The position numbers and the translations under genes are program-made. Positions 9,043-51,021 of a stretch of 64,000 nucleotides of DNA are shown in pieces. Positions within the stretch are counted from its first letter, which is position 1; the number at the start of each line of letters is the position of its first letter. The notes beneath the pieces are model-generated. The model ran no database searches, had not been told where the DNA came from, and was given only the letters and a program-made list of their open reading frames with translations. Origin of the DNA: Schlesneria paludicola DSM 18645 (GTDB taxonomy: Bacteria; Planctomycetota; Planctomycetia; Planctomycetales; Planctomycetaceae); the NCBI GenBank assembly GCA_945876035.1, contig CAMCMU010000006.1, forward strand, positions 1 to 64,000, written 5' to 3'.

Positions 9043-10944
9043 ATGGACAGCACGATTTTTTTAACTGCCGCAGAAGTCGCTTCTGAATTTAATGTGGACT
9101 CACCGACGTTGGAGCGGTTTGTTCGTGAGGGTGTCCTTGGGGCACTCTCTGAAGTAGGACAACAAAAATTTAGTCGCCAAGATCTCCAGTCCCTAGTCGA
9201 TTCTGGACGGGTCAGTCCTATCACAGCAGAGATTCGATTGGATCGCCTAATCTCCGCAAGAGAAGCCACTCTCGGCAAAGGTGAGGGATATGACGAAGTC
9301 TCCTATATTGAGATCGACGAAAAGGCTTTGGCTGAGCACGCGGTTTCGCAGTTGACGGACGAGCAATTTGAGGACCGAACACCGGTCGTCGAAATCGGGA
9401 TTTTGAAAAACACGCCTCCGCAGGCCGACGCGAATGCATTGAAAATGCCGCAGGCGGAACCGTATCAATACCTCCACAGCGAGCCCTCCGATGCCTCGCC
9501 TCCAAGCGTAAGCAGTGTGCAGATCGAGTTGAAGGGTCCTTCTTCTAATGCCGGAACCCTCTCGGACAGCGCGTTCGAACTCGACGATTTTATTAAAAAA
9601 ACTGGCAGCGATAGTGATGTTTGGATTGCCAAAAATCTGGCCGACAGTGACAGCGATGTTCAGCTCTCAGATGCCGCGAATCCGAACAGACCGAGTCTCG
9701 CCCAACGTCTTCCTGACAGTGACAGTGACGTTCGGATTGCCGACAACTTGAAAGACAGTGACAGCGATGTCCGGCTCGCGAGTCACTCTCCAAGTGGGCT
9801 TTCGGAAGATGCTGGAATCATGCCCAACGTTGGCACAGATACCAAAGTTCCTGCTTCTCATTCTTCTCTGAAGAAACCGCAATCGGTGAATCCCAAGGAG
9901 CCTGTTTCCATTGAAAAGACAGAACCCTTGGAGAAAACGAGCTTGATGCACAGTTTTGAGAACCCTCCATCGGTCGCCACGCGAAATGATTCGGAAAAGG
10001 CTGCCAAAACCGATGCGTCAGGAAGTGCCATCGATCTAGGTGATGACAGTGGAATCAGTCTATTCGACTTGGAGGACAGCGGGATTACGCTCGACAGTGG
10101 TTCTGATGGGGGACCTCACGCCGCAGGAAGCTCGATCGTATTGTCGGGCGCCGACAGTGGTGTCACCTTGGAAATTGGGGATCCCGATCATTTCGGACTG
10201 GACAACTACAGTGGCCTAACGCTCGCTGGAGAAAGCGGCATTTCTCTGGAAACGGGTGACAGCGGCATTTCTCTGGGAGCACCCGACAGCGGTTTAGCGA
10301 TGCTATCGGCGAGCGACTCGGGAATCCGGCTTTCTTCCAAAAAACCGTCTTCTTCGCCAGACGACCTCGGCGCCACAACCTTTAAGGGGGATGATCCCGC
10401 GAAAACTCAAATGATTGAGTCTTTATCCAATTCTGGAAAATCATTGAACGTCAGCAAGGATCTGTCACAAACTCGAACGACTGGCGAAATATCGATTCTC
10501 GACGAGGATGATTTTGAAACCGCGGGGACACCTGTGCCAAGTCCCGAGCGAATCAAGGACAGTCCCGGGTTGACTGATGCCTTCCGAATGGACGACTCCC
10601 CAGCGGTCGACGAACTTGATATTGCCGACGAATTGGAAGCGGGCTTCGGCGTTGAGGATCAAGACATTTTCGATGCCGAGGAAGCCGCGTTTAATGACGA
10701 TGACGAGTATCCCAAGAGCAACGAATACCCCTCTTCAGCGGCCGAAATGAGCGACGTTAAAAAATCCAAAGGGCAGCGTGAGCCCGCTTGGGGGCTGGGC
10801 ATGTCGATTGGGTTAATCGCCTGCTCCGTGGTTCTCGCCGTAAACTCTGTTGTCATTTGGGCCGGTGTTTCGTCGATGTGGAGCGGTGCCGAGGGCTCGG
10901 GTATCGCCTCGGGAATCATTGCGCAATTGGCGGGACTCATTTGA
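9043..10944 (+). CDS. HTH-domain membrane protein with SDSDV and DSG repeats
   Basis: A 633-residue protein with three parts. Residues 5-62 look like a MerR/excisionase-type helix-turn-helix (LTAAEVASEFNVDSPTLERF, later LQSLVDSGRVSPI). Residues about 185-245 hold four copies of SDSDV followed by R, W or Q and I or L. Residues about 332-430 hold eight or more copies of a (D/E)SG(I/V/L)(S/T/R)L motif. The remaining linker is acidic and low in complexity. Near the C-terminus (about 584-606) one strongly hydrophobic segment suggests a membrane anchor, preceded by KKSKGQREPAW. The arrangement (cytoplasmic HTH, disordered acidic linker, tail anchor) fits a membrane-bound regulator or scaffold, but no function is known to me. 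Proteins with similar SDSDV runs occur in planctomycetes as far as I recall. It stands alone, divergent from 8743. Confidence 0.7.
   Translation: MDSTIFLTAAEVASEFNVDSPTLERFVREGVLGALSEVGQQKFSRQDLQSLVDSGRVSPITAEIRLDRLISAREATLGKGEGYDEVSYIEIDEKALAEHAVSQLTDEQFEDRTPVVEIGILKNTPPQADANALKMPQAEPYQYLHSEPSDASPPSVSSVQIELKGPSSNAGTLSDSAFELDDFIKKTGSDSDVWIAKNLADSDSDVQLSDAANPNRPSLAQRLPDSDSDVRIADNLKDSDSDVRLASHSPSGLSEDAGIMPNVGTDTKVPASHSSLKKPQSVNPKEPVSIEKTEPLEKTSLMHSFENPPSVATRNDSEKAAKTDASGSAIDLGDDSGISLFDLEDSGITLDSGSDGGPHAAGSSIVLSGADSGVTLEIGDPDHFGLDNYSGLTLAGESGISLETGDSGISLGAPDSGLAMLSASDSGIRLSSKKPSSSPDDLGATTFKGDDPAKTQMIESLSNSGKSLNVSKDLSQTRTTGEISILDEDDFETAGTPVPSPERIKDSPGLTDAFRMDDSPAVDELDIADELEAGFGVEDQDIFDAEEAAFNDDDEYPKSNEYPSSAAEMSDVKKSKGQREPAWGLGMSIGLIACSVVLAVNSVVIWAGVSSMWSGAEGSGIASGIIAQLAGLI
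9589..10341 (+). repeat. In-gene repeat region coding SDSDV and DSG motifs
   Basis: The DNA shows recurring GACAGTGACAGCGATGT-like units between about 9600 and 9780 (four copies, spaced by 42-66 nt). GACAGCGG(A/C)AT-like units recur between about 10040 and 10330. Codon use differs between copies, so the repeats are maintained at protein level and are not recent DNA duplications. Confidence 0.6.
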
Positions 10945-11013: not shown

Positions 11014-12153
11014 TCAGGGAACGTTCCTGCTGGGGGTGTTCTTGTGACCCTGCAGGGGTTGGCTGAGAACTGTCCGGAATCCACAGTGGATGGTGCCTGA
11101 CTGGACGTCACCCTTCATGCGTGCGGACACCCGATATCCCGTGCAATAGTCGTCACTGCACAGGAATGATCCTCCTCGTTGAACCCGCTTCGGAATTGTC
11201 GGGTCATTCGGATCAAAACTGTCGATCGGCCCCCGAGGATTACGGGATTGGTGGATATTGTAAGAGTCCGGCCGATACCAGTCATGACACCACTCCCAGA
11301 CGTTGCCGGACATGTCATAGAGGCCATATCCATTTGGCGGAAAGGACTTTACAGGGGCCGTTCCGGCAAACCCATCTGAGCAGGTATTGTTTTCTGGAAA
11401 CGTTCCCTGCCAGATATTGTTCATCGACTTGCCTTCGGGATTGCATTCCCGCCCCCAAGGGTATTCCGCCCCATCCAATCCGCCCCGCGCTGCCCGTTCC
11501 CATTCGCTTTCAGTCGGCAAACGGCGACCTGCCCAACGACAGTACTCGACCGCATCATCCCAAGACACCTGTGTGACGGGATGGCCCATCTGATCTTGAA
11601 TCGACGATTGAGGGCCGAGTGGATGTCGCCAACTGGCTCCTGGTTCATATTTCCATACTTGGTAAGGCCAATTCACAAAATCTTTGCGAAGGGTTCGCAT
11701 GTCGATATTTGGATTGAAACAGATCGATCCGGGAACAAGTATCGCTTCGTCAATATTCGAGCCCAAAGGAACCTGAGCTGCAATATCGTCTCTGTTCGGC
11801 TTCCGTTCCGCCGTTGTGACATAGTGCGTGTTGTCGATAAATTCTGAAAATTGAGCATTCGTCACCTCCGTCTCGTCCATCCACAGTCCGTCAATGGTCA
11901 CACGGTGTTCGATCTGTTCATCCGCATGCGGACCACTCGAATTCCCCATGAGAAACGTCCCTCCTGGTATCCAACACATTCCCGCAGGGGTTATTCCCGG
12001 TTGATCCCTGAGCGGCATTGTCTTATTTGACGCCGCTTTCGGGACGGGGGGGATGCTGTTCGGCACGGGAGTCCCCACAGGACTCCAAATCGCCAATGAA
12101 AGAAGCAGTGAACACAGGAGTGGCGGAACAGCGTAGGCCCATTTAATTTTCAT
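11014..12153 (-). CDS. Formylglycine-generating enzyme (sulfatase maturation), exported
   Basis: FGE/SUMF1-family enzymes oxidise the active-site cysteine of sulfatases to formylglycine. The chosen ATG at 12153 has GAGGT 6 nt upstream and starts a signal or anchor (MKIKWAYAVPPLLCSLLLSL), giving 379 residues; the frame remains open far upstream without support. The FGE domain runs from about residue 55 (PAGMCWIPGGTFLMGN) to the end, with the typical QVSWDDAVEYCRWAGRRLP and MSGNVWEWCHDWY motifs. Both copper-binding catalytic cysteines are present in CSDDYC (Cys332 and Cys337), which many FGE-like paralogues lack, so true catalytic activity is likely. The export signal suggests that it acts outside the cytoplasm. 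No sulfatase gene lies in the window, but planctomycetes usually have many. Confidence 0.88.
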   Translation of the reverse strand: MKIKWAYAVPPLLCSLLLSLAIWSPVGTPVPNSIPPVPKAASNKTMPLRDQPGITPAGMCWIPGGTFLMGNSSGPHADEQIEHRVTIDGLWMDETEVTNAQFSEFIDNTHYVTTAERKPNRDDIAAQVPLGSNIDEAILVPGSICFNPNIDMRTLRKDFVNWPYQVWKYEPGASWRHPLGPQSSIQDQMGHPVTQVSWDDAVEYCRWAGRRLPTESEWERAARGGLDGAEYPWGRECNPEGKSMNNIWQGTFPENNTCSDGFAGTAPVKSFPPNGYGLYDMSGNVWEWCHDWYRPDSYNIHQSRNPRGPIDSFDPNDPTIPKRVQRGGSFLCSDDYCTGYRVSARMKGDVQSGTIHCGFRTVLSQPLQGHKNTPSRNVP

Positions 12154-12836
12154 GATTGACCTCATCGCGGAGACGAATGATCGGTTCCTGCAGAATCTGT
12201 GTGACTCAGCAGACGATAAAACGTGCGTGATCTTATTCTCGAAGCCGAATAGGAACAGCATTCCTATTCGGCTTCTGCCGTGGTTATTGTCCTGAGTGAG
12301 ACGTCGATTGGAAAGTGGCTGAGTCATTCCGGGATGAAATTGAGCCCGATTCGATCTCGAGAGTTGCGAATCGAGGACGTCTAGGACTCTGCTTTTCGTC
12401 ACCCACACGAGGATCCCTGAGCGGATCGACGATCGTTTTCAGAATCGCTGGAAGGGTTGTGGCGTGTGGCAAGACGTATCGAAGATCGCGGTCCAACCGG
12501 AGATGCTTGTTACCTCCGGCTCCAAAGCATGAAGTTCCGGATGAGGACTCGCCATCCGGGGGATTGCCACCCACCAACGAGCGTCTCCTTTGAGGAAATC
12601 CTGCGTTGGATTGTCGTTTGAGGATTCCGAATTCGGTGATACGCCAGAGGGGATCTCGCGTGGCCAAGTCGGAACGGTTTATTGAAGTGCGTCGACGACA
12701 CCCCCAGCATCGATGAGACGCGTGACTCAAATCTCACTCGACGTGGGTCTCGTTGAGAACGCAGTCGAGGGAAGCGGATCCCTGACTGTCGCATGGGTGA
12801 AGTCCTAACGCACTTGGATTCACCGGACGTGACCGA
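12154..12836. other. Intergenic region upstream of the FGE gene
   Basis: About 680 nt. The frames present (12315-12593 plus, 12284-12730 minus) have no domain and skewed composition. The one striking element is the perfect hairpin at 12241-12275. Confidence 0.45.
12241..12275. terminator. Perfect 15-bp hairpin upstream of the FGE gene
   Basis: GAAGCCGAATAGGAA (12241-12255) is the exact reverse complement of TTCCTATTCGGCTTC (12261-12275), with a 5-nt loop CAGCA. It lies 88 nt before the FGE start and about 560 nt after the end of the preceding minus-strand gene. No U-run flanks it. It may be a terminator for an unseen upstream transcript, or a leader structure controlling the FGE gene. Confidence 0.6.
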
Positions 12837-13674: not shown

Positions 13675-14163
13675 ATGGACTATCGATTGAAACCACCAGG
13701 TAAGACGTGTGCCGGGACAGGACGTCCGCTCGTTCCCGGCGAAGTGTGCCATTCTGTACTGATCGAGAAGGAAGGTCACCTCGTCCGATTCGATTATTCC
13801 GATGCAGGGTGGTCCGAGCCACCCAAGGGACACGTTGGTTACTGGAAAACAACAACTCCTGCGGTGACTGATGCCCCGACACAGACACTCGATGCCGAAT
13901 CGGCACAGCGTTATTTCGAGCAACTGTCCGAGGAAGCCAGCCCGACTCACGATCGACAACGATATGTCTTGGCGTTGATTTTGCTGCAACAACGTCGATT
14001 GCGACTTGAAAACACCAGAGAGGATGGCGATGACGAGTTTCTGGAGCTCAGCGGTCGGCACGGTGAAGGGTCATTTGAAGTCCGAAACCTCAAACTTTCG
14101 GATGCGGACACTCAGCAGTTGCAAGTCGAATTGAAATCTCATCTGTCCACTGAATGGTCGTAA
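13675..14163 (+). CDS. Hypothetical protein, possible zinc-binding N-terminus
   Basis: A 162-residue soluble protein. The N-terminus MDYRLKPPGKTCAGTGRPL followed by VPGEVCHSVL is a short pattern seen in planctomycete proteins as far as I recall; two cysteines and a histidine could bind metal. A GWSEPPKGHVGYW stretch follows, then a charged helical region (QRYVLALILLQQRRLRLEN). The start at 13675 has GAGAGGA about 11 nt upstream. The stop lies 14 nt before the start of the next gene, so the two are probably co-transcribed and translationally coupled with the lipoprotein at 14178. Function is unknown; the neighbour suggests an envelope-related operon. Confidence 0.6.
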   Translation: MDYRLKPPGKTCAGTGRPLVPGEVCHSVLIEKEGHLVRFDYSDAGWSEPPKGHVGYWKTTTPAVTDAPTQTLDAESAQRYFEQLSEEASPTHDRQRYVLALILLQQRRLRLENTREDGDDEFLELSGRHGEGSFEVRNLKLSDADTQQLQVELKSHLSTEWS

Positions 14164-14177
14164 CAGGGACAATTCCA

Positions 14178-15368
14178 ATGCGGACGGAACTCAATCGACC
14201 CATCTTGGCAAAGGGCTATCGGTGTCTGCACCGGCGTTCAGTCTGCCTTGTGCTCAGGTCACGGCTCCTCTCGCCTCCATCCCGATTGGCCCTTTCTGTT
14301 TTTGTTGCCATGTCGCTGTGGGGCAGTCTTTCTGGATGTGCTGGATTTCGAGGATTGGGTTTTCGGCGAGGCGTTGACCCGATTGCCGGAGCACCAAAAC
14401 CCCGTTGGACGGACGACCCACAGCCGGAAGATGTTGTCGAGCACCTCAATCGGAACGTCGACAAATTACAGGCTTGGCGTGCAAATAATATTCGAATTCG
14501 CGCAAACAATATTCCGTTGTCTGGCACCCTCGCGGTCGAACGTGGGCGACGTTTACGCCTCGTTGTGAATTCGATCGCAGGCAACGAAGTCGACATTGGC
14601 AGCAACGACGATCTGTTTTGGGTTTGGGCGAAGCGCATGCCGCCCCCTGAATACGTTGTCTGTCACCACAAAGATACGGAAGCCGTACGACAAGCGATGG
14701 GCATCCCGTTTGAACCGGAGTGGTTGATGCAGGCACTCGGAGTGTCTCCTTTGAATTCAGCGGGAATGAGCGTGGAGCTCGAACCGACGATTCGACAAGC
14801 GCGGCTGGTTCAGAATGTAACATCGGCAGATGGGCATCCGTTGCGCAAGGTGATCCTTGTAGACCTGGCTCGAGGCCTGATTCTAGAGCACAGCGTGTAC
14901 GACGATCGAGGTCAACGTATCGCAGTGGCTCGGTTGGATGGCCACAGACTCGACGAGTCCAGCGGTGTGATCATGCCGCGTCGAGTCAAGCTCGACTGGC
15001 CTCAAAATCAAATGTCGCTGGTGATGACTCTTGGCCCTATTGAAATCAATCCCAAGGGAATTCCCTCGCAAATCTGGGACATGCCCAAGATGCAGGGTTA
15101 TCAAGTCGTCGATTTGGGTGCGACTATTCAACCGGGGACACGACTGGCGGATCGAGGGACTGATGCTCCGATCAAATTACTCACGCCTGCACTCGGTCAA
15201 GACGACAATGTCGGCCATGTCAAACTGGATACCGTCGGTTTTCCTGAGGATGAACGTTCTCAAGGCGTGGACGAACAGGAGGGCACGGAAGATACCGAGT
15301 TGCCGACTCAGGACACTGTCAGAGATGTGGTCAAGCCATCGATTCCGAAGAATTGGTGGAACGAATAA
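14178..15368 (+). CDS. LolA/LolB-like outer-membrane lipoprotein
   Basis: A 396-residue predicted lipoprotein. After a long basic N-terminus, a hydrophobic segment ends in the lipobox LSGC (Cys54 from ATG 14178). The mature part begins AGFRGLGFRRGVDPIAG, then HLNRNVDKLQAWRAN and alternating short strands (RANNIPLSGTLAVERGRRL, then LVVNSIAGNEVDIGSNDD) characteristic of the LolA/LolB-type half-barrel used to carry lipoproteins or lipids. Later EHSVYDDRGQRIAVARLDGH fits the same fold. The C-terminal 60 residues are acidic and likely disordered. An alternative ATG at 14154 overlaps the previous stop. The EVE-domain gene follows after 34 nt on the same strand. The fold assignment is an inference from strand pattern and not from a specific motif. 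Confidence 0.65.
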   Translation: MRTELNRPILAKGYRCLHRRSVCLVLRSRLLSPPSRLALSVFVAMSLWGSLSGCAGFRGLGFRRGVDPIAGAPKPRWTDDPQPEDVVEHLNRNVDKLQAWRANNIRIRANNIPLSGTLAVERGRRLRLVVNSIAGNEVDIGSNDDLFWVWAKRMPPPEYVVCHHKDTEAVRQAMGIPFEPEWLMQALGVSPLNSAGMSVELEPTIRQARLVQNVTSADGHPLRKVILVDLARGLILEHSVYDDRGQRIAVARLDGHRLDESSGVIMPRRVKLDWPQNQMSLVMTLGPIEINPKGIPSQIWDMPKMQGYQVVDLGATIQPGTRLADRGTDAPIKLLTPALGQDDNVGHVKLDTVGFPEDERSQGVDEQEGTEDTELPTQDTVRDVVKPSIPKNWWNE

Positions 15369-17296: not shown

Positions 17297-18832
17297 TCAG
17301 CGATTCAGTTCGTCAATGAGTTTGGCTCGGACATTTTGCGGGTCGGCGCCTTGGACCTGCTTCATCACTTGGCCGATCAAGGCTCCGATTGCTTTCTCAT
17401 TGCCGGATTTGAAGTCAGCAACGGCCTTCTCATTGCGGGCCAGCACGGCCGTGATCGCCGCGGTGATCACACTCGAGTCCTGCAGGATCGCCAAACCTTT
17501 GGCCGCAATAATTTCGTCGATCGCTTGCGGACGAATACAATCGGCAGAAACCATTTGAGGACAGGACGCATTGTCACTGACATCGGATGACAACAGTTCA
17601 GAAAAGACGTCTCGAGCCGATCTGATGGTGATTTTTTTTTCATTGATGCGACTGAGCAGAACGGAGAGAACGTCTGGACGGATTGCAAAAGTGTCGATTG
17701 TTTGCCCACGCTGATTCATCTCGCGGAGGACATCTTGAGTCATCCAGTTCGCCGCTTGTTTGCCATCGCCACACGCACACGCCACCTCTTCGAAGTAGTC
17801 GGCCAATTTGCGGCCTTGATCAATGATCACCGCCGCATCATAGGGAGTGAGTTGAAACTGCGATTGAAAACGATTTCGACGCTCCGCCGGCAATTCGCAC
17901 ATCTGCTGCCGTAGGGCCGTCAATTGGGCTTCATCGACCGTCACCGGAACAAGGTCCGGATCAGGGAAATAGCGGTAGTCCGCGGCGGCTTCCTTCTCAC
18001 GCAGGAGATACGTCACACCGCGATTCGGATCGTATCCACGCGTCGACTTGTGGCCTCCCTGGGCGCCCATGCAAATGCCTGTTTGCTGAAAGGCCGCCCA
18101 TTGTCGGGCGACCTCAAATTGAATGGCCTGTTCGGTAAAACGAAAGCTGTTCAGATTCTTGACTTCGACAATCGGCGTCGGAATGGTCGAACCATCTGAC
18201 TGGTGAACATGGAGATTGATGTTGGCATCACACCGCAGGCTGCCTTCTTGCATGTTACAGTCTGAAACCTCTAAATAAGTCAAAAGCAATCTTAATTCTT
18301 CGAGAAACGTCTTCGCTTCGGCAGCAGAACGCAGATCGGGTTCGGTGACAATTTCGACCAGAGGTGTGCCGGCTCGATTCAGATCGACTTGACTGTCTCG
18401 GCCTGTCCCCATTTCGTCGTGCACGTTCTTGCCGGCATCTTCCTCCATGTGTGCCCGAAGAATGCGGATGCGTCGTGTTGCCGCGAGACCATCACTGGAA
18501 TCGGTGGCGACATCAACAAACCCATCGTGACTAAACGGCAAGTCGTACTGACTAATCTGATATCCCTTGGGCAGGTCCGGATAGAAGTACTGCTTCCGAT
18601 CCCATTTTGTGAAACGGGCAATCTGGCAGTTCAGTCCGAGGGCCGTCTTCACCGCCAGATCGAAGCCCCGAGCATTCAGTACCGGTAAGGCACCGGGAAG
18701 GCCCAAGCAGACGGGGCACGTCTGTCCGTTGGGCTCATCGGGTTTGAAGGCGGTGGAACATCTGCAAAAAATCTTGGTCAACGTCTGCAGTTGCACGTGG
18801 ACTTCGAGACCAATGATGATGTCGTAGCTCAT
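17297..18832 (-). CDS. gatB: Asp-tRNA(Asn)/Glu-tRNA(Gln) amidotransferase subunit B
   Basis: GatB is the kinase and tRNA-binding subunit of the GatCAB complex that converts Glu-tRNA(Gln) to Gln-tRNA(Gln) and/or Asp-tRNA(Asn) to Asn-tRNA(Asn). The 511-residue protein starts with the signature IIIGLEVHVQLQT. It keeps the zinc-site cysteines (CRCSTAF and CPVCLGLPG) and contains the HMEEDAGKN-type motif and the DLNRAGTPLVEIVTEPD signature near residues 155-171. The C-terminal helical YqeY-like tail (about 355-511) is complete. Upstream on the same strand are gatA, gatC and rpmB, although gatA and gatB are separated by 295 nt, an unusually wide gap for this operon. Confidence 0.97.
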   Translation of the reverse strand: MSYDIIIGLEVHVQLQTLTKIFCRCSTAFKPDEPNGQTCPVCLGLPGALPVLNARGFDLAVKTALGLNCQIARFTKWDRKQYFYPDLPKGYQISQYDLPFSHDGFVDVATDSSDGLAATRRIRILRAHMEEDAGKNVHDEMGTGRDSQVDLNRAGTPLVEIVTEPDLRSAAEAKTFLEELRLLLTYLEVSDCNMQEGSLRCDANINLHVHQSDGSTIPTPIVEVKNLNSFRFTEQAIQFEVARQWAAFQQTGICMGAQGGHKSTRGYDPNRGVTYLLREKEAAADYRYFPDPDLVPVTVDEAQLTALRQQMCELPAERRNRFQSQFQLTPYDAAVIIDQGRKLADYFEEVACACGDGKQAANWMTQDVLREMNQRGQTIDTFAIRPDVLSVLLSRINEKKITIRSARDVFSELLSSDVSDNASCPQMVSADCIRPQAIDEIIAAKGLAILQDSSVITAAITAVLARNEKAVADFKSGNEKAIGALIGQVMKQVQGADPQNVRAKLIDELNR

Positions 18833-19127
18833 GAATCACTCTTGCCTAAAGTTGAACTACGATTGATTTGAAGAGCCAACAAACAGATCGGACGTGATCC
18901 GACACCCAATGGCATTGAAGACGCACATCACGACCTCAACCCATGACGAATGATGCAGACCCCTCATTTTCGATCTCCGGGGAGGACCATCTCTGACTCA
19001 CTCGCATTCGCTTAAAACAGGGGATACAGCGACGTTCGTTCAGGGGTTTGGCCTAGGAGATCCGCTCGTCCTGTAACCCTTTTTGGTTTTTCTGAGGGGA
19101 GGGTTTTCTTTTGGGATTTCGCGGAGT
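18833..19127. other. Gap between gatA and gatB
   Basis: About 295 nt with no gene and no clear hairpin. It could hold a separate promoter for gatB, but I see no convincing boxes. Confidence 0.4.
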
Positions 19128-20609
19128 TCATGGCGATGTGTTGGAACTATTGGGTTGCCGGCGGTGCCAATCGGTTTCGCGTTCGTACATCCTAGCCGCT
19201 CGGAGGAGTTGTTCCTCTTCAAACGGTGGCCCTTGAAGCTGCAGACCGATAGGAAGTCCTGCAGAGGTGAAACCGCAGGGTATCGAAATCCCTGGCAGAC
19301 CGGCAAGGTTCGCACTGATTGTATAGATATCCCCGAGATACATCGACAGTGGATTGTTGGTCTTTTCGGCAATTCGATACGCCGCGGTCGGAGTGACGGG
19401 CCCAGCGATGATATCGACATCCACAAAAGCCTCATCGAAGTCTCGCCGGATCAGTCGTCTGACTTTCAGTGCCTTGGTGTAATACTGATCCGCATAGCCC
19501 GCTGAGAGCGCGAAGATTCCAAGCATGATCCGTCGTTTGACCTCATCGCCGAAGCCTTCGGCACGACTGGCCTCGTACATCTCCACGAGGCTCCCAAACT
19601 CCGCTGCACGGTGTCCGAAGTGAACTCCGTCGTAACGAGACAGATTACTCGACGCTTCAGACGTCGCGATCAAGTAATACGTGGCGATCGCATACTTAGT
19701 ATGCGAGAGATGGATCTCCTTCAACGTGGCTCCGAGAGACTTATAAAGATCGAGAGCTTGTCGGACAGATCGCTCAACTTCCGCATCAAGTCCCTCTGCG
19801 AAATGTTCAACCGGCACGCCAATTCGCAACCCGCTCAACGGCTGTTCGATCGACGTCAGATACGACGGAACGGATCTGTTCACTGAGGTGGAATCACGTG
19901 GATCATGACCGGCCACGGCTTCGAGCAACAGGGCGACACTCGTCACATCCGTCGCCAAGGGACCGATTTGATCCAAGGAGCTGGCGTAGGCAACGAGTCC
20001 ATAACGCGAGACGCGTCCATAAGTCGGTTTCATGCCAACGATCCCGCATAGTCCGGCTGGCTGGCGAATCGACCCGCCTGTATCGCTTCCGAGAGCAAGC
20101 GGCACCATTCGAGCAGCAACAGCCGCCGCCGATCCACTGCTCGACCCACCCGGAATCCGCTCTGTATCCCATGGATTCCGCGTCGGGCCAAACGCGGAAT
20201 TTTCGCCGGACGAGCCCATCGCGAATTCGTCCATGTTCGTGCGGCCAATCAGAATCGCGTCGGCCGATTTCAGTTTTTCAATGACGTGCGCATCATACGG
20301 AGCGACAAAGTCTCGCAGCATTCTGCTACCACATGTTGTCCGTTGGCCGGATGCGCAGATAACATCTTTAATTGCCACGGGGACTCCTGCGAGCAGACCG
20401 AGTGGCTGATTCGTGACGCGTCTCCGATCGATCTCCTCGGCCTGCCTCAACGCATGTTCGGCATCCACACTTAGAAACGCACCGATCCGCGAATCAAGAC
20501 GGGCGATCGCCGATAGAAAATCTCGGGTCACTTCGACGCTGCTGACCTCTCGTGTGCCGAGTTTGGCAATAAGATCACTTGCCGCAAGGGCGGTAGTACT
20601 GGATGCCAC
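19128..20609 (-). CDS. gatA: Asp-tRNA(Asn)/Glu-tRNA(Gln) amidotransferase subunit A
   Basis: GatA is the glutaminase that supplies ammonia to the GatB active site through a channel. The 493-residue protein has the complete amidase Ser-cisSer-Lys triad: Lys81 in VAIKDV, Ser156 in PGGSSSGSAAA and Ser180 in GSDTGGSIRQPA, the positions expected from other GatA proteins. Length and ends are normal: the C-terminus carries the LPIGLQLQGPPFEEEQLLRA signature typical of GatA. It lies between gatC (about 108 nt upstream) and gatB on the minus strand. Part of the rpmB-gatC-gatA-gatB cluster. Confidence 0.97.
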   Translation of the reverse strand: MASSTTALAASDLIAKLGTREVSSVEVTRDFLSAIARLDSRIGAFLSVDAEHALRQAEEIDRRRVTNQPLGLLAGVPVAIKDVICASGQRTTCGSRMLRDFVAPYDAHVIEKLKSADAILIGRTNMDEFAMGSSGENSAFGPTRNPWDTERIPGGSSSGSAAAVAARMVPLALGSDTGGSIRQPAGLCGIVGMKPTYGRVSRYGLVAYASSLDQIGPLATDVTSVALLLEAVAGHDPRDSTSVNRSVPSYLTSIEQPLSGLRIGVPVEHFAEGLDAEVERSVRQALDLYKSLGATLKEIHLSHTKYAIATYYLIATSEASSNLSRYDGVHFGHRAAEFGSLVEMYEASRAEGFGDEVKRRIMLGIFALSAGYADQYYTKALKVRRLIRRDFDEAFVDVDIIAGPVTPTAAYRIAEKTNNPLSMYLGDIYTISANLAGLPGISIPCGFTSAGLPIGLQLQGPPFEEEQLLRAARMYERETDWHRRQPNSSNTSP

Positions 20610-24019: not shown

Positions 24020-24085
24020 ACGATCCACCCTTGATACAAGGTGGTATTTGAGTGGATTTTGTCTCTAACAGAAACGTGTTCCGTC

Positions 24086-26287
24086 ATGCTATCCATTCGC
24101 TTGCCCGATGGTAATGTTGTCGAACATCCTGATCATGCGACCGCGTTGGATGTTGCCATGGCCATTAGCCCAAGGCTCGGTGCGGCGGCGATCGGGGCAA
24201 AAGTTGGCGAAACGATTATTGATGCGATGCGTCCACTGGCGGAAGTCACCTCTGAACGGCCGATTCCATTGCAGTTGCTGACGGAGAAAGATGACGCCGC
24301 GTTGAGTATCCTGCGTCATTCGTGTGCTCACATCATGGCTCGGGCTGTGATGCGTCTCTGGTCAAATGTCGAACTGGCATTCGGTCCGACAACAGGTCAA
24401 GGATTTTATTACGACATTTCTTGCGATCACAAGATCAGCGAAGATGACTTCCCTCGTATCGAAGCCGAGATGCAGAAGATCGTCGATGCGGCTGAGCCTT
24501 TCGAACGCTTCCTCTGTGACCGCGAAGAAGCCCTGAAACTTGTTGCGGGGATGTCGCAGACACTCAAGGTCGAGCACATCAACACAGGGTTGGCGACTCA
24601 TCCGGTAGTGAGTTTCTACCGGCAGGGAGAGTTCGTCGATCTCTGCCGCGGCCCGCATATTCCCCATGCCAAAAAAGTGAAATCCTTCAAAATACTCTCC
24701 GTCGCGGGAGCTTATTGGAAGGGCGACGCTTCGGGGAAGCAACTTCAACGACTGTACGGCACAGCTTGGTTTTCACAAAACGATCTGAAGGCATACCTCG
24801 ATCAGGCCGATGAGGCAAAGCGGCGAGATCATCGAGTGTTGGGCAAACAACTCAATCTGTTTACCATCAGCCAGGACGTTGGCCAGGGGTTGTGCCTGTG
24901 GCTGCCCAAGGGTGCGACCATTCGCTCGATCCTCGAAGATTTCATCAAGAAGGAGTTGATCGCCAGAGGCTATCAACCGGTTTACTCACCGCACATTGGT
25001 CGTGTGGAAATGTACGAGACCAGCGGACACTTTCCGTTCTATCGTGACTCACAGTTCGCACCCATTTTCGGACACGAAGCAGGACAGTTGGTCGATTATT
25101 GGATTCGCCGGCTCGAGGCTCTCATCAAGACTCGGGTTCCGTTTCCTGCGGAAGACGAGAAGAAGCTCGCCGAATCCGCCAAGCTGATGGGAATGGACGT
25201 TGCCGCAATCCCCGTGGGAGGGACACCCGAAACGCGCAAAGAACAGCTCCACGCTTGGGAGAAACAACAAGAGCGGTATCTGCTCAAGCCCATGAATTGC
25301 CCGCACCACGTGCAGATTTACAAAGCCCAACACCGGAGCTATCGAGACCTCCCTGTTCGACTTGCTGAGTTTGGAACGGTCTATCGTCATGAGCAGTCGG
25401 GTGAACTGAACGGAATGCTTCGTGTGCGCGGACTGACACAGGACGACGCCCATTTGTTCGTCACTCCCGAGCAGGTGATGGAAGAATTTAAAGCAACGAT
25501 TGAACTAGTGAAGTTCGTCTTGGGCAGCGTCGGTCTCACAGATTACCGCGTGCAGTTGTCCTGTCGTGATTCGAGGAACACGTCCAAATACGTTGGGTCT
25601 GACGAAGGATGGGAAAACGCACAGAATGCGCTTCGCCAAGTTTTGAAAGATATGAAGATGTCGTTTGTGGAGTGCGAGGGTGAGGCCGCTTTTTATGGCC
25701 CCAAGACCGACTTCATGGTGCGCGATTGCATCGGCCGCGAGTGGCAACTTGGAACAGTACAACTCGACTTCAACCTTCCTGAACGATTCCAACTTGAATA
25801 CATCGGCGCGGACAATCAGGCTCATCGACCCGTCATGATCCATCGCGCGCCATTCGGCTCGATAGAGCGATTCACCGGAATGCTGATTGAACACTTCGCC
25901 GGCGCGTTTCCTCTGTGGCTGGCTCCAGAGCAAGTGCGAGTTCTCTCCATCAGCGACAAGTTTGCAGACTACGCGAAACAGGTAGAGGCTCGGTTCCGTG
26001 CTGCCGGATTCCGAGTCACGAGTGATTTGCGCAGCACAAAAATCAATAGCAAGGTGCGCGATGCCCAGCTCGAACTGACTCCTTACATGCTGGTTGTTGG
26101 CGGGCGAGATGCCGAAAATGGAACGGTCAGTCTTCGGGATCGAATCGAAGGGGACCTCGGCGCCATGCCGGTGGACGACGCCTTGTCAAAACTGCAATTG
26201 GAAGTCACCAATCGATCCATCCGACAAGTTTCTAAAAAGACGTTTCAACAGTTTTCCGAAATTGTTGAGGCGGACAATGAGTACTAG
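24086..26287 (+). CDS. thrS: Threonine-tRNA ligase, with a long catalytic-domain insertion
   Basis: Charges tRNA(Thr). ATG 24086 starts exactly at the TGS domain ([17 protein letters not shown]), so the upstream in-frame start at 24041 is rejected. The editing domain contains [11 protein letters not shown] near residues 75-85 and the zinc-editing [10 protein letters not shown] motif near 208-217. The catalytic domain has [11 protein letters not shown]-like motif 1, [10 protein letters not shown], the [13 protein letters not shown] motif and the [11 protein letters not shown] motif 3, followed by an anticodon-binding domain. The protein is 733 residues, about 90 longer than Escherichia coli ThrRS; about 60 extra residues (roughly 335-395, with [17 protein letters not shown]) lie between motif 1 and the NCPHH motif. 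That insertion may be lineage-specific. A good promoter is present at 23991-24019. Confidence 0.96.
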
Positions 26288-43443: not shown

Positions 43444-43526
43444 ATCAACAACGGCCTTGGATAAGTTTCCCACGAACTTGTAACGATAGTGTGAATTTTG
43501 CTTCGAATAGGGAAGGGATTCCCGTT

Positions 43527-45482
43527 ATGGACGAGCGAAAGATTGACTCGGCGGTTCCGCGCGCACCTGAATTAGTGGAATTGTCTCCCTCGGATTCTGT
43601 TCAACCAAGGGTCAACGAAGCTGTGATTCGAATTGATGGCCGGCATTCGATCGCCGAAGCCTGTGACACTGCGTTGCCAAATCCGGCGGCAATTTCCTTG
43701 TCCTTCCCGAATTCGGCGAATCGAGTCAGTTCGCAGCTCCTGTTGGATGCCGGGCTTCTCGTTCAGCAGATGCAGGAAAAACTGATTGATCTCAGCCAGC
43801 GTGAGGGACTGATTGAACAACGCGCGGCCGAACTGGATGCCGAGCGGTTCCGAGACCAATCGTTGCGACTCCTGCAAATTGAAGAACTGGAGCAACGACG
43901 ACGGCAGATCCAGTCCGAAGAAACATCGCTTCACGATCGGGTGTCGGCAACCGCATCCCTGTTAGAGCAAGTCGATGCCGAGCGATCGGCCGTCGAACAA
44001 CGCCAACTCGAGCTGCGTGATAACCTGCTGGCTGAACGTCACACGGTCGAACAAGAACGCCGTACTCTTTTGGAGGAACAGACGCAGGTTCGCAGGCTGG
44101 CGGCCACACTTGAAGAACAGCACAGACAGGCGACGGTGGAGGCCGAAAAACTCATCCAATCGGAACGAGAGCGGCTTTGGCGGACACTCATTGCGGAGTG
44201 GGAAGAACGACGAAGCCAGTTCGAAGCGGAGCACGAAACATGGCGGGCCGAGGCACAAGCGGAGCGGCTCGAGATCGAACGAGAGAAGACGCTCTATGAT
44301 GCCGCCGTCTGTAATGCGGAATCCGTGTTCGCGGCCGCTAGAGCGACACAGACTGCGGAGCTATCTTCCATTCGCGAAACGGTTTTGGCATCGATCGAAA
44401 TCGAACGCCAAGCACAACGGGCCCTGATCGAAGAGGAACAGATCAAGAACCTCGAAACGATCCAGACCGAGCGACGGGCACACGAATCCTCGCTCCGGGC
44501 AGAACGCGACGAATGGGAAAAAACGTATGCCACGCAACGTGCGCAGATCGATGGGGAACGAACCGTATTGGAAAGCCGAGTTCGTTTTCAAGAGGAACAT
44601 TTGGAGAAGCTACGAGTAAATCTGGAACGTTCCCAAAATGAAAATCGGCATCAGCTTCAAATCGAGCGTCGATACCTCGAGGATAATACTCAACTGCTCC
44701 TGCGGAGAACCCATCAAAACGATCTCTATCGAGAGTCCATTGACGCGAGGGAAACATCGATCCAACGGGAACGCGATTTCCTTACCAAGTCGAGACTCGC
44801 GCATTCCAGTACAACGGATCTTGACCGAATCGGCTTGCAGACTGAGCGTGAGGCGTGGGAGCAGGAGAGGCAGATTCAGCAAGCCGAATTGCGGCGTCAA
44901 CAAGAACTTTTTACATCGCATTCCGAAAACCTCGAAAGCCGGCGAATTCGTCTGGACAAACTGAGGGGGGAATTGGAAGAGACACATCGCTCGACACTCG
45001 AAATGCGAATGGCCATCGAAGAGACATGGGTCGATCTCACGCAATCCGTGGGTCCGGAAGAGGCTCGGGAGCGAGTCGAAAAGGTTCGAAGTTCTCTCGT
45101 CGGTTATTACCGCCAGTTGCATGACGAAATCCTCGTTCAACGACGTGAGCATCTCGAGGCTCAGTCGAAATTGGAGAGACTTCGTGCCGACTTCCACGAC
45201 GAACGACACAAGCTAATGGATTGGATTGCTACTCGCGACAAGGAACTGTTAGTCACGGAGGAACGCTTGCGATTGGAATCCACTGAACTTGTCGTACGTG
45301 ACTCGGCATGGCAGATGACCCGAGATCGTTGGCTGATCGAAAAAGCAGAGGCCGAGCAGGTCATTCGCAGACTGTTGATGGAACTCGGTTCACAGCATCG
45401 CGATGACCCGCAATTTTTGGCATCCTCGACGATCTGCGCATCGTCAGCGCCGTTTGAATTCACTCTTCCAGCTGAAATTTGA
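43527..45482 (+). CDS. Large coiled-coil protein of unknown function
   Basis: A 651-residue soluble protein with no membrane segment and no recognised domain. From about residue 90 to 610 it is almost continuous coiled coil rich in E, Q, R, L and A, with arginine-poor breaks. The first 85 residues include a short basic motif and the only folded-looking part. ATG 43527 is chosen for the AAGGG 8 nt upstream; the open frame begins earlier at 43491 and leaves out the ribosome binding site. It is downstream of trxA by 84 nt and could be co-transcribed, but a separate function is likely. A cytoskeletal or scaffold role would fit planctomycete cell organisation, but that is speculation. Confidence 0.7.
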   Translation: MDERKIDSAVPRAPELVELSPSDSVQPRVNEAVIRIDGRHSIAEACDTALPNPAAISLSFPNSANRVSSQLLLDAGLLVQQMQEKLIDLSQREGLIEQRAAELDAERFRDQSLRLLQIEELEQRRRQIQSEETSLHDRVSATASLLEQVDAERSAVEQRQLELRDNLLAERHTVEQERRTLLEEQTQVRRLAATLEEQHRQATVEAEKLIQSERERLWRTLIAEWEERRSQFEAEHETWRAEAQAERLEIEREKTLYDAAVCNAESVFAAARATQTAELSSIRETVLASIEIERQAQRALIEEEQIKNLETIQTERRAHESSLRAERDEWEKTYATQRAQIDGERTVLESRVRFQEEHLEKLRVNLERSQNENRHQLQIERRYLEDNTQLLLRRTHQNDLYRESIDARETSIQRERDFLTKSRLAHSSTTDLDRIGLQTEREAWEQERQIQQAELRRQQELFTSHSENLESRRIRLDKLRGELEETHRSTLEMRMAIEETWVDLTQSVGPEEARERVEKVRSSLVGYYRQLHDEILVQRREHLEAQSKLERLRADFHDERHKLMDWIATRDKELLVTEERLRLESTELVVRDSAWQMTRDRWLIEKAEAEQVIRRLLMELGSQHRDDPQFLASSTICASSAPFEFTLPAEI

Positions 45483-45646: not shown

Positions 45647-48600
45647 TCATGGCCTTGTGATCGTCTCATGGAGGTTGAGCAGCGTTCTTGTCACGCTTGT
45701 CCAAGCGGCAAGATCGGATTTATCCAGTCCGTTGGGAGACGGAGCGTCCCCCGCAAGCGAGAGGCTTTCGGCATCGCCTGGGTTCGTGCGAAACTCCTTG
45801 CGGTGTCGGGAGAGTAGTCGGAGTAGCACCGCAGCCTCGTCAGATGTGGGAGGGCGAGCGACGGCGTTGCCAAAAGCCCAGATAAGACGGGATTCGTCTG
45901 TCTCGCCTCCCTCCAGTAAGATCCGAGCGGCGAACATTCGGGCGGCTTCGACGTGGCTGGGATCATTCAGTAGCGTGAGCGCTTGCTGAGGCGTATTTGA
46001 TCGGGGGCGATCGGCGGTACATTCTTCTCGACTCGGTGCGTCAAATGCGGACAAGGACGGGTGCAGAAATGAACGCTGCCACCAGGTGTAAATTCCTCGA
46101 CGATATTGGCGTTCTCCTTTGTCTGCCTCCCATGTCCGCCGAGGAAAGTTCAGGAACTCCCAATAACCCTCTGGCTGGTAAGGTTTATCGCTCTCACCTC
46201 CAATACGCCACGACATCAGGCCGCTGATCGTTAAGGCGTTGTCACGAATGAACTCCGCATCCAGACGCAAGCGGTTCTGCGCCGAGAGAAGCCGGTTGAA
46301 CGGATCGACTGCCCGTGCCGTACTAGATTGAACCGAGCTTTGACGATATACGCCGGAGCTGACCAACTGACGAACGAGCTGTTTGACATTCCAGCCACTC
46401 TCGCGAAAATCAACGGCCAAATGATCGAGCAACTCCGGATGAGTCGGCCACTCACCTTGGCTCCCCAAGTCTTCGAGAGACTTGGACAAGCCCTGCCCAT
46501 AGAAGAGTTTCCAGAGGCGATTGACGAAGACTCTCGCCGTGAGCGGATTTTCCGCCGAGACAATCCAATGGGCAAGCTCCAATCGTGTCGCCTGCCTATC
46601 GTCTACCGTGACCTTGCCCAAAAACCCCGGAACGCCTGGCTGAACGACCTCGCCAGAATCGTCTAACCAGTTTCCGCGTGGCAGAATGCGAGTCATCCGC
46701 GGCTCAACGGACTTTGTAATCAGGCTGGTTGGCAGTCGCTTGATCAGGGCATCTCGTTTGTCGGTCGCTTTTTGAATGTCCTCGCGTTGCGGCTGAAAAC
46801 GGCTGGAGCGTTCTCGCAGAAACGCGTGGAGTTGAGTTGCTTCCGACTCATTGCGTTGCTCAGCAATCTTGGCGATCACTGCACGCAAGACGGGCGGAAC
46901 CCATTCCGAAGTCGGTTTTGCAATGCGTGTTCCACTGATTCTCAATTTGCCGATGCCGTGCTTTAACAACTTCGATTTGAATTCCAAAAAAATGTTTGTT
47001 TTACCATCGTTGAGGGGCCTCTCAAATTCAAAAATTGCTTCGTGTGCCTGTCCCGGCTGGGGAAGAATTCCCCAACCGGTCTGGTCATTACCGTCGATTG
47101 ATTTGGCAATCTCCTGACCGACCTGAGAGTGATCGGCGACGGCACGCGTCACGGGCACGGGGAGCGTCTTGCCATCGGCATCGAGTATCGTAATTTTAAA
47201 TTCGGTCAATACAAAATTGCCGTCGGGAGCCATCCCCGGCCCATTCGCGGGCAACGTATTATCCGCCAGAACCTCTAGGCGGATGCCAGACAATCCTGAC
47301 AAAGAATCCACCGCAAACACATACGCCTCTTCGTCAGCGGCGGTGCCCGTGGACAGAAAGGAATCATCGTCCTGTTTAATCAGTTGCGATTGGCCGAGAA
47401 CGTGGATCTCCACCGGTTTGATGATCTGCCATGCGGAGTGAAAAGCTATTTCCGTCTCCCAGTGGGGATTGTTTGATAGGAAATCATTGACGGCGTTGAC
47501 GAGAGATTGACGCGATTCAGAGACCTCGAGGGCAAGGCGGGTCAGTTCCTCTTCTTCCGCAGGTGAGGGAACGGGCATGCCTGGCTCGCGTAAGCCGACG
47601 GCCGCTTCATCGACGTCAGCAAAAAATGCAGCCATACTGTAAAAGTCTCGCTGGCTGTACGGATCATATTTGTGATCGTGACATTCCGCGCAACCCATGG
47701 TGGCACCAAGCCACACGGCGGAGACGTTTCGCACTCGGTCAGATGCATATTTTGCGAGGTACTCCTTCGCCTGGGCGCCTCCTTCCTGCGTTGTCTGTAA
47801 CAGACGATTGTAGCCCGAGGCAACCTTTTGGTTCACGGACGGAGACGGCAATAAGTCTCCTGCAATCTGTTCGATGGTGAATACATCGAAGGGCAGATTG
47901 TCGTTGAATGAGCGAATCACGTAATCCCGATAGGGGGCGATGTCGCGAGGATTGTCGCTGTGATAGCCAATCGTGTCCGCAAAACGGACTAGGTCCAGCC
48001 AATAGGAGGCCATCCGTTCCCCAAAATGAGGCGATTCCAATAGTCGTTCGATCACTTTTTCATAGGCGTCTGGCGCAGTGTCACTCACAAACATTGCCAC
48101 GTGTTCTGGAGTGGGCGGCAGACCTGTGAGGTCGAATGAGAGACGCCGAATGAGCGTGGCGTGATCGGCTTCGGAGGCATGCTTTAAACCCGCAACATTG
48201 AGTTTTTCCAGTACAAACTGATCGATCTCGTTTCTCGTCACTCCCGGTTCTTGTGTCCGCGTTGGCCTTGAGCGAACGGGCTTCAGGTACGCCCAGTGCC
48301 CCTGCCATTTCGCACCCTGCTCAATCCACGTTTTCAGAATCGCAATGTCTCGAAGAGACACGTTTTTGCCGGAATCGACCGGCGGCATGATTTGTTCGTG
48401 ATCGACAGAAGTCACCCGCCTCAGGAGTTCGCTTTTTTCCGGCATCCCCGCCACAACGGGCGCCATCCCTGATCCCGCCCCAAACAGACCTGCTTCCGTA
48501 TCGAGCCGCAAATCACCCTGCCGCTTGTTGGCATCCGGCCCGTGACACGTGAAACAGGCTTCCGACAATATTGGTCGCACGTCACGGTTAAACTCAATGA

Positions 48601-48682
48601 TGGCAGGCAATGAGGCATCGCTGGCGAAGACTGATCGAAACGTTACGCTGAGACAGAAAATGCAAAGGAAATGCCATCGCAT
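45647..48682 (-). CDS. PSD1/DUF1553-DUF1549 protein with planctomycete cytochrome c motif
   Basis: A 1011-residue secreted protein of the planctomycete-specific set. The signal peptide ends near ASDASLP (about residue 20). The PSCyt1 motif CFTCHG (Cys43, Cys46, His47) sits near the N-terminus, followed by KRQGDLRLDTEAG, typical of planctomycete cytochrome c domains. The middle part (DUF1549; HWAYLKPVRS and DQFVLEKLNVAGLKH, about 160-350) and the C-terminal DUF1553 domain (TARVFVNRLWKLFYGQGL and LRLDAEFIRDNALTISGLM, from about 700) complete the family layout. Proteins of this kind are usually encoded next to a DUF1501 partner, which is absent here. The ATG at 48682 has GGAG upstream. Function in planctomycetes is unknown; a role in redox or metal-dependent processes at the cell surface has been suggested. 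Confidence 0.92.
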   Translation of the reverse strand: MRWHFLCIFCLSVTFRSVFASDASLPAIIEFNRDVRPILSEACFTCHGPDANKRQGDLRLDTEAGLFGAGSGMAPVVAGMPEKSELLRRVTSVDHEQIMPPVDSGKNVSLRDIAILKTWIEQGAKWQGHWAYLKPVRSRPTRTQEPGVTRNEIDQFVLEKLNVAGLKHASEADHATLIRRLSFDLTGLPPTPEHVAMFVSDTAPDAYEKVIERLLESPHFGERMASYWLDLVRFADTIGYHSDNPRDIAPYRDYVIRSFNDNLPFDVFTIEQIAGDLLPSPSVNQKVASGYNRLLQTTQEGGAQAKEYLAKYASDRVRNVSAVWLGATMGCAECHDHKYDPYSQRDFYSMAAFFADVDEAAVGLREPGMPVPSPAEEEELTRLALEVSESRQSLVNAVNDFLSNNPHWETEIAFHSAWQIIKPVEIHVLGQSQLIKQDDDSFLSTGTAADEEAYVFAVDSLSGLSGIRLEVLADNTLPANGPGMAPDGNFVLTEFKITILDADGKTLPVPVTRAVADHSQVGQEIAKSIDGNDQTGWGILPQPGQAHEAIFEFERPLNDGKTNIFLEFKSKLLKHGIGKLRISGTRIAKPTSEWVPPVLRAVIAKIAEQRNESEATQLHAFLRERSSRFQPQREDIQKATDKRDALIKRLPTSLITKSVEPRMTRILPRGNWLDDSGEVVQPGVPGFLGKVTVDDRQATRLELAHWIVSAENPLTARVFVNRLWKLFYGQGLSKSLEDLGSQGEWPTHPELLDHLAVDFRESGWNVKQLVRQLVSSGVYRQSSVQSSTARAVDPFNRLLSAQNRLRLDAEFIRDNALTISGLMSWRIGGESDKPYQPEGYWEFLNFPRRTWEADKGERQYRRGIYTWWQRSFLHPSLSAFDAPSREECTADRPRSNTPQQALTLLNDPSHVEAARMFAARILLEGGETDESRLIWAFGNAVARPPTSDEAAVLLRLLSRHRKEFRTNPGDAESLSLAGDAPSPNGLDKSDLAAWTSVTRTLLNLHETITRP

Positions 48683-49057
48683 GCAAGGACTCCGCAAGAC
48701 CCACGCACAAAAATACTTCACCGAATGGAAACCCGAAACGTTATGTTGGCTGAGATGGCCGAAATTCGCCAGCGTTGCAGACAATTATTGTCATTCATGG
48801 CCATAGCACAGGTCGGTTCAGCTCTGCTGCTAACGCCAGTTGATAGATGACAGATGGTAGCGTTCCTGTTAGTCTGAATCGGGTTGAGTCGCCGTGAAGA
48901 TTGGCCTGAGATCTTAATTAGCCGCGTCAAAGTTGTTCGTGACACGACAACTCAATGGGTCCTACCTGTTGTCTGTAACCATCGACGAGTATCGTTGTTG
49001 GCGCGCGCTGCCGATCAACGACGAAAGTGATACGAGAGGAGCTAAGGAGAACTCCGG
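48683..49057. other. Intergenic region between divergent genes
   Basis: About 375 nt carrying the promoters of the PSD1 gene and of the phosphatase gene. No clear boxes and no other gene. Confidence 0.45.
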
Positions 49058-50476: not shown

Positions 50477-51021
50477 CGTTGTTCAAATCCCTAACAATGG
50501 CTGTGTCCTTGGGGATTCGGAAACCGATGCTCGACGGGGATTTCTCCTGCCCCCCATCGACTCGGTCGGTGATTTGCGGTGGAAGTCGTCTCGCCGTGGC
50601 GCATCGACTTGTCGAACAACAAGGACGTGGCGGCACACTTTTCGTTTGCGGTGTGCGTCTTGAACGAGAATCGATCGCGTGACGGCGACACCTGTTCGTC
50701 GGAATGCGTCGGCCGCCAGACACTTTTTGAACGAGGTCGTGATTCCGAGGGCGATGATCGTCATTCAGCAAGCGATCGCCTCAGAAAGCAAATGCAGAGC
50801 AATCTGAGGCGTTGCTTGAGAGCAGTTCCATACCGGATTCAAGAGCCAGCCTTGCTTGTCGTTGATTTCGAGTGAGAAACGAACGACTCAGACAAAACTC
50901 GACAGCGGAACGGTCCCGGTCGTTACGAAAGAGTTGACTGTTCGTGCTTCATTCTCAACGGCTGAGCGGTACAATCCAAGTCTTTCCCCACACAGTGATT
51001 TTTGACCCGTTCGCGGGTGGG
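50477..51021. other. Intergenic region upstream of dnaE
   Basis: About 545 nt. Only short overlapping frames; a GTTCAAATCC-like string near 50478 was tested as a tRNA T-arm and rejected. No promoter I can support. Confidence 0.4.

Follow-up and report, generated by a model that had tools for sequence, protein, structure and literature searches.

What role can be played by a protein in which a winged helix-turn-helix (HTH) and a single membrane helix are joined by a long, acidic linker carrying two kinds of short repeat? The question is raised by a 633-residue open reading frame (ORF) with an ATG start at positions 9043-10944, on the + strand, of a 64,000-nucleotide stretch of DNA from Schlesneria paludicola DSM 18645 (Planctomycetota; assembly GCA_945876035.1, contig CAMCMU010000006.1, positions 1 to 64,000 of the forward strand), referred to here as the window. 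An earlier note had described this gene from its sequence alone. Comparison with relatives places the protein in a conserved planctomycete family with the same architecture, indicates that its motif cores are under selection, and does not support a DNA-reading role for its HTH. The reading that we favour, at what we would call an even chance, is a tail-anchored membrane scaffold whose HTH docks a protein. The parts of the gene are as follows.

9043-10944, + strand: complete gene, with HTH, acidic linker predicted to be disordered, membrane helix and short tail, 633 amino acids (ORF, AlphaFold)
9058-9204, + strand: winged HTH, residues 6-54, net charge -4 (Pfam, AlphaFold, fold search, charge count)
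9301-9342, + strand: SYIEIDEKALAEHA, conserved segment of window-type paralogues, residues 87-100
9349-10785, + strand: acidic linker, predicted disordered, residues 103-581 (AlphaFold, composition)
10789-10887, + strand: membrane helix, residues 583-615, hydrophobic core from 587 (AlphaFold)
10903-10938, + strand: short C-terminal helix, residues 621-632, the conserved family tail (AlphaFold, family alignment)

In the AlphaFold model, the HTH consists of helices at residues 9-16, 20-29 and 45-54 and wing strands at 34-37 and 40-44. Its predicted local distance difference test (pLDDT) values are about 63-79 in ten-residue blocks, those of the membrane and tail helices are 52-64, and those of the linker lie below 50 almost throughout residues 103-581; the alignment behind the model has 7 rows and the mean pLDDT is 42.7, so this is modest evidence. 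The single C-terminal membrane segment that had been proposed is borne out by the model and by the family, in which exactly one membrane-like segment is found in 84 of 92 distinct members, two in 5 and none in 3 (cut off or masked). The window protein, with its segment at 587, a tail of 28 residues and a linker that is 20% acidic, can be set beside family medians of 29 residues for the tail and of 26% D/E and 4% K/R for the linker. A basic stretch, KKSKGQR, immediately precedes its membrane helix.

Conservation of the family and its repeat motifs

Searching with the window protein as a single sequence matched 28 of 59 genomes, its own counted, and a first scan of this kind over genome contigs matched no relative. 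A profile built from nine canonical members (A3) reached much further: 165 of the 170 genomes of the order, all of one taxonomic family, were matched (128 of the 130 good ones), as were 188 of 294 genomes of the phylum. Outside the class most of the listed A3 matches cover the HTH part only, and about a dozen that were read there have an acidic linker, plus a C-terminal hydrophobic segment unless cut off. An HTH profile (A6) matched 192 of 198 genomes of the class, usually one to three times each; the weaker of these hits, at E of about 1e-4 to 1e-8 and often in the taxonomic family f3, may be unrelated, HTH_17 being common. A carboxy end of W-G, D-L-x-R-x-M-W and then a short hydrophobic stretch recurs across the class. 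In one sub-group (L109, L134, L135, L136) a second hydrophobic segment lies at the very C-terminus.

Domain models add little beyond the HTH. Pfam HTH_17 (PF12728) matches residues 6-54 at E 0.0014 and 19.3 bits, under its curated cut-off of 27 bits, which 7 of 10 relatives pass; the excisionase model TIGR01764 gives 14 bits against a cut-off of 28.8 (2 of 10 relatives pass), and the BldC family model NF033787 of NCBIfam gives 22.2 bits against 77 and fails. By these scores the family is HTH_17-derived, with a window copy too diverged to pass the cut-off. No Pfam or NCBIfam model extends beyond the HTH in the 11 proteins scanned. The claim that no described family explains the layout is thus correct as far as these models go, but the protein is not a one-off, since it belongs to a conserved family, searched for here within Planctomycetota. 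No prior description of the family was found in the open-access literature, which is a weak negative.

The genome contains two paralogues: besides the window copy there is a canonical one on contig C88. In a tree of the HTH and carboxy end, the window copy is one of 16 members of a clade, here called clade B, which stands apart from the canonical copies with an ultrafast bootstrap (UFBoot) of 100 and is made up of the copies of the genus together with L011, L022 and L038. On this tree the window copy is a diverged second paralogue beside the canonical one. The deeper branches are poorly supported: L163, from another taxonomic family, is placed inside the window's, and L065 and L078, which belong to the window's taxonomic family, are placed with others.

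The repeat units of the window protein are these.

9607-9621, + strand: SDSDV unit 1, residue 189
9646-9660, + strand: SDSDV unit 2, residue 202
9718-9732, + strand: SDSDV unit 3, residue 226
9757-9771, + strand: SDSDV unit 4, residue 239
10045-10062, + strand: DSG unit DSGISL, residue 335
10075-10092, + strand: DSG unit DSGITL, residue 345
10153-10170, + strand: DSG unit DSGVTL, residue 371
10207-10224, + strand: degenerate unit YSGLTL, residue 389
10231-10248, + strand: DSG unit ESGISL, residue 397
10258-10275, + strand: DSG unit DSGISL, residue 406
10285-10302, + strand: degenerate unit DSGLAM, residue 415
10315-10332, + strand: DSG unit DSGIRL, residue 425

All four SDSDV units counted in the earlier note are present. 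Its "eight or more" DSG units need a qualification, as six fit the strict pattern [DE]SG[IVL]xL and eight are reached only with a relaxed one. Neither motif is expected from composition: shuffling the linker 20,000 times gave an expectation of 0.05 for DSDV, seen 4 times, and of 0.016 for [DE]SG[IVL]xL, seen 6 times, and no shuffle matched either observed count. The note had also taken selection from units that differ in codons while keeping their residues. This is true mainly at third positions, and 15 of the 16 core serines share AGY codons, compared with 24 of the 76 other serines, an excess that makes duplication the probable origin of the units.

Independent evidence of selection, for both types of repeat, comes from nine pairs of orthologues. 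The nonsynonymous change per site (pN) of the motif cores is lower than that of the remaining linker in 9/9 pairs, for instance 0.009 against 0.119 (L012/L014), 0.035 against 0.149 (L006/L016), 0.000 against 0.106 (L070/L072) and, for the window protein and its nearest relative, 0.186 against 0.431. In two of the nine pairs the core pN is 0.000 where the synonymous change per site (pS) is 0.43 and 0.76. Most pairs show high synonymous change, to the point of saturation in some, and one pair (L070/L071) is too close to inform. Some sequences were used in two of the nine pairs, and taking the cores from whichever sequence came first in a pair introduces a mild bias. Outside the cores, the linker is also under purifying selection, with a ratio of nonsynonymous to synonymous rates (dN/dS) of 0.02-0.17 where computable, so the contrast between cores and linker is one of degree.

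The motifs are also present in orthologues. At least one DSD[VI] is found in 57 of 58 members from the window's taxonomic family (L038, a named MAG, being counted there by assumption), in 12 of 22 from other families of the class, 5 of which have at least two, and in 1 of 32 elsewhere. DSG units are found in 58 of 58, 22 of 22 (at least two in 17) and 0 of 32, respectively; the chance counts given above apply to the window protein. The simplest reading of this distribution is that an acidic linker came first, DSG units were then gained in the class, and SDSDV arrays were gained mostly in the window's taxonomic family. In that case the family would form a natural series that shows a linker gaining two short motifs one clade after another.

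These results bear on the view that the repeats are unconstrained, low-complexity filler and that the gene matters only for its HTH and anchor. Such a view could draw on the wide variation in unit number (DSD[VI] 0-13 and DSG 1-14 among the family members listed) and on the members outside the class, 31 of 32 of which lack DSD[VI] and 32 of 32 DSG. The slower change of the cores in every pair, the excess over shuffles and the near-universal presence of both motifs in the window's taxonomic family leave it very improbable.

Do the motifs occur in other proteins? A degenerate DNA pattern for SDSDV has 55 matches in the whole genome (34 forward, 21 reverse), against 9 and 12 for a reversed-pattern control. 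Ten of the 55 lie in the two paralogues (4 and 6), and the other 45 exceed the 21 of the control; one place was read. Single SDSDV motifs may thus be present in other proteins of this genome. On contig C63 (L145, 85-1167), a methyltransferase-like ORF has TDSDV and SDSDV close to its start; outside the paralogues, no further close pair on one strand occurs among the 55 matches. The occurrence of DSGISL in the Nrf2 literature was taken as coincidence.

The HTH and its DNA-facing positions

The MerR/excisionase-type fold assigned to the domain agrees with the fold search, in which the nearest solved structures are BldC, RacA, MerR proteins and Xis. BldC (6ama, 6amk) ranks first, with a Foldseek E of 0.0026 and a Z of 6.8 at an rmsd of 2.4 over 56 residues, and is followed by MerR proteins, excisionases and CbpM. 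Foldseek gave no match below E 0.001 for the window HTH, and Z values below 8 are common, so these comparisons give the fold class only.

Fold does not settle function, and the contacts described for BldC can be used to ask what the family has kept. In BldC, bases are read by Lys26 and Arg30, phosphates are held by Thr27, Thr29, Trp31 and Lys33, and the wing docks via His46, Arg47 and Arg48 (PMC5859096). The corresponding positions were read in 109 distinct family HTHs (L013 and L015, with no HTH in the available stretch, are uncounted) and in control HTH_17 domains from relatives. The controls came from 29 of 30 loci (a partial match, L175, was dropped), 24 of them distinct; their alignment of 27 rows, less four stray fragments of three domains removed by hand, has 23 rows, of which 13 align at the wing.

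The family domain is acidic, and its DNA-facing positions are acidic or lost. Its median net charge is -2 in the 109 HTHs against +4 in the 24 controls (Mann-Whitney p 6e-14); for single proteins the charge is +6 in BldC, -4 in the window HTH and -8 in E. coli CbpM. Acidic residues occupy the Lys26 position in 92 and the Thr27 position in 82 of the 109 family HTHs, but neither position in any of the 23 controls. At the Arg30 position, which was also taken for that of the YpG-reading arginine of RacA, 68 of 109 are basic and 15 acidic, whereas 21 of 23 controls are basic; clade B has kept the arginine in 2 of 16 copies, one of them the window copy (Arg25). The DNA-binding role implied by the earlier note is not supported by this sequence evidence, and a DNA-reading HTH was set aside as the favoured reading on BldC contacts, charge and control domains.

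A candidate membrane scaffold, its rivals and its gene neighbours

A scaffold is the reading that we consider to have an even chance. One C-terminal helix would hold the protein in the inner membrane with a short tail outside, and a disordered, acidic cytoplasmic tether of about 480 residues would present two short motifs, each in several copies (SDSDV with hydrophobic residues after it, and DSG-I-x-L), as further docking or phosphorylation sites. At the end of the tether, the winged HTH would mainly dock a protein partner instead of reading DNA, and the whole would bring partners from the cytoplasm together at the envelope. Computation supplied the fold class, the arrangement of the parts and how well they are conserved, the selection on motifs, the linkage to neighbours in relatives and the acidity of the HTH; the topology, the protein-docking role and the partners are inferred. 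As to topology, 152 basic residues in the 15 positions before the membrane segment against 89 in the 15 after it (n=101) favour a cytoplasmic N-terminus.

Several points weigh against this scaffold. The putative docking HTH has no known partner, and profile comparison puts the domain nearer to the DNA-binding BldC (92%) than to CbpM (5.6%, a single sequence). With 7 rows in the AlphaFold alignment, low pLDDT is weak proof that the linker is disordered. The charge comparison is made with high-scoring HTH_17 hits, and its rows are not independent of one another. Certain contacts also persist: the Arg30 position is R or K in 66 of 93 members outside clade B, the Arg48 wing position is basic in 103 of 109 (likewise in 13 of 13 controls), and the window copy carries Thr22, Arg25, Arg28 and Lys42 at contact positions. 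Two further positions discriminate poorly, namely Lys33, where 9 of 23 controls are acidic as well as 63 of 109 family members, and Arg47, which is basic in 0 of 109 and in no more than 2 of 13 controls; since the controls differ little there, both were dropped from the argument. Our estimates were left unchanged, because the two strongest positions, Lys26 and Thr27, gained a clean control. Weak or non-specific DNA binding is possible, because the basic wing residue and, in most members outside clade B, the basic Arg30 position are kept.

It is from this possibility that the main rival draws, a tether in which a poorly specific grip of the HTH on the chromosome, together with the long linker, attaches the nucleoid to the inner membrane, much like the anchoring of the Bacillus chromosome to the membrane by RacA. 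In its favour, structures of BldC and RacA bound to DNA are among the fold matches, almost every member keeps the wing lysine (65 of 66), the Arg30 equivalent is often basic as noted above, and planctomycete DNA is described as highly condensed (PMC10632474). Such a tether must be reconciled with an acidic recognition helix and a net negative domain, with the loss of the base-reading arginine in 14 of 16 clade B copies, with a linker that would be expected to repel DNA by its own acidity, and with an AlphaFold model whose linker has no long helix (a coiled-coil predictor was not used); we regard it as unlikely. Alternatively, the protein could be a membrane-bound transcription factor, either of the CadC/ToxR kind or latent and released by regulated cleavage in the linker or membrane helix. 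An N-terminal HTH with a single membrane helix would suit this, and the conserved neighbours in relatives would be possible targets, but the DNA-contact residues are poorly kept and a median of about 29 residues after the hydrophobic core leaves no periplasmic sensor domain, making this less likely again than the tether.

The neighbours of the gene were sought in 50 loci outside the window's taxonomic family (31 + 19), picked from profile matches across many families, with large contigs favoured. In 34 of the 50 (20/31, three of these being overlapping frames, and 14/19), the adjoining gene upstream, on the same strand, encodes a small protein whose N-terminal part has one hydrophobic segment. 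An OmpA-domain gene adjoins downstream on the same strand in 20 (15/31 and 5/19) and, in L129, on the other strand. In 12 of the 50, neither neighbour profile gave a match beside the gene; since 4 and 6 of the loci served to build the two profiles, the matches at those loci are guaranteed. In an independent check of 198 genomes of the class, the small protein was found once each in 95, none of which belongs to the window's taxonomic family. It lies 22-289 bases upstream on the same strand in 74 of the 76 genomes for which both places are listed, the two exceptions being G555 and G561; the other 19 stand outside this count, their HTH place not being among those listed. In the window's own genome it has no match anywhere, and in the window's taxonomic family it was seen at 0 of the 17 loci looked at, where the OmpA-domain gene adjoins at one (L101).

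The small protein is an orphan of about 110-140 amino acids with a conserved ID-x-x-x-x-x-x-x-VY-x-x-D ... I-x-L-x-x-x-R (e.g., L102, L103, L105, L139), and no Pfam or NCBIfam match was found in the two sequences scanned. The OmpA assignment is a Pfam match on one sequence (L107); from their N-termini, by our own reading, these neighbours would be lipoproteins. A gene that reads as phosphatidylserine-decarboxylase-like adjoins in L109, L135 and L136 and lies 2 kb away in L134.

A bolder reading, held tentatively and with more doubt than attaches to the scaffold itself, is a phylum-wide envelope module that was ancestrally an orphan membrane protein, a tail-anchored HTH scaffold and an OmpA-domain protein. 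Its HTH would have turned to protein docking, as in CbpM, and its tether would have been elaborated in one class into DSG and then SDSDV arrays for docking or as a phospho-switch, giving a planctomycete-specific organiser between cytoplasm and envelope. Planctomycetes divide without FtsZ (PMC12283558), and about a fifth of the essential genes of one planctomycete are reported to be without known function (PMC10632474). A membrane scaffold gene that is conserved and linked to an orphan partner is a concrete candidate for such uncharacterised biology and, if the module reading is true, for a cytoplasm-to-envelope organiser in bacteria whose division proceeds without FtsZ.

Other features of the surroundings stand apart from this argument. 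Genes for dnaG and rpoD lie within a few kb downstream in nine distant loci (L110-L113, L129, L133, L137-L139), and upstream in L160 and four copies of the genus (L114, L118, L119, L121); this may be inherited gene order or chance and is given no weight. In the window itself, the gene faces a convergent neighbour that is not part of the system:

11014-12408, - strand: FGE-sulfatase (SUMF1-like) protein

The same convergent neighbour is found in three relatives (G009, G012, G015). Two long ORFs of the window, 43491-45482 (663 amino acids) and 14154-15368 (404 amino acids), have no Pfam match at E 1e-5. Ordinary neighbours occupy 45647-48784, 50944-54600, 24041-26287 and 17297-20609, among them a PSCyt/PSD1 cytochrome protein, DNA polymerase III alpha, a class II tRNA synthetase with a TGS domain, GatB and a GatA-like amidase. 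No tRNA gene was found in the window, and a plasmid origin was rejected, there being no plasmid match.

Comparison with known systems

Proteins with a cytoplasmic HTH and one membrane helix are familiar from RodZ and from CadC/ToxR, all of them bitopic. The HTH of RodZ is of the Xre type, whereas Pfam gives only HTH_17 in the present family, once also MerR_1, and no Xre/Cro-type HTH. CadC and ToxR have an OmpR-type winged HTH and periplasmic domains; the window protein has 28 residues after its hydrophobic window (family median 29) and no periplasmic sensor domain. The best profile matches to solved structures, 8vd6 (chain CAP REPEAT, E 9e-8, five short partial matches) and then 7bqb (NF6, E 0.011, partial), are repetitive and were set aside.

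The nearest fold is that of the Streptomyces protein BldC, with a profile probability of 92%. BldC is a free DNA binder of 68 residues (PMC5859096). The window protein differs in that its domain is acidic, retains few of the contact residues and continues into a linker and a membrane anchor. RacA (5i41, 5i44) is a weaker likeness (sequence E 0.27, Foldseek E 0.049, Z 4.5), shared through a MerR-like winged HTH in a protein that forms a tether between DNA and membrane. RacA has a coiled coil and reaches the membrane through DivIVA, whereas the window protein has an integral membrane helix and an acidic repeat linker that is predicted to be disordered.

For a docking HTH, the closest parallel is the E. 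coli chaperone modulator CbpM, in which a MerR fold without DNA-binding residues binds a J-domain (PMC4063869). CbpM (3ucs) has a Z of 5.5 to the window HTH, and its ISEEEL recognition helix resembles the IDEEEL helix of deep-branching family members, although the window copy has no EEEL helix and CbpM has a coiled coil and no membrane part. Direct homology is not supported (an hhalign comparison with one sequence, that of E. coli, gives a probability of 5.6% at E 0.0068), and CbpM is used here as an analogy. If the docking scaffold is correct, the family may be a second case, beside CbpM, of a MerR-type HTH that has lost DNA binding.

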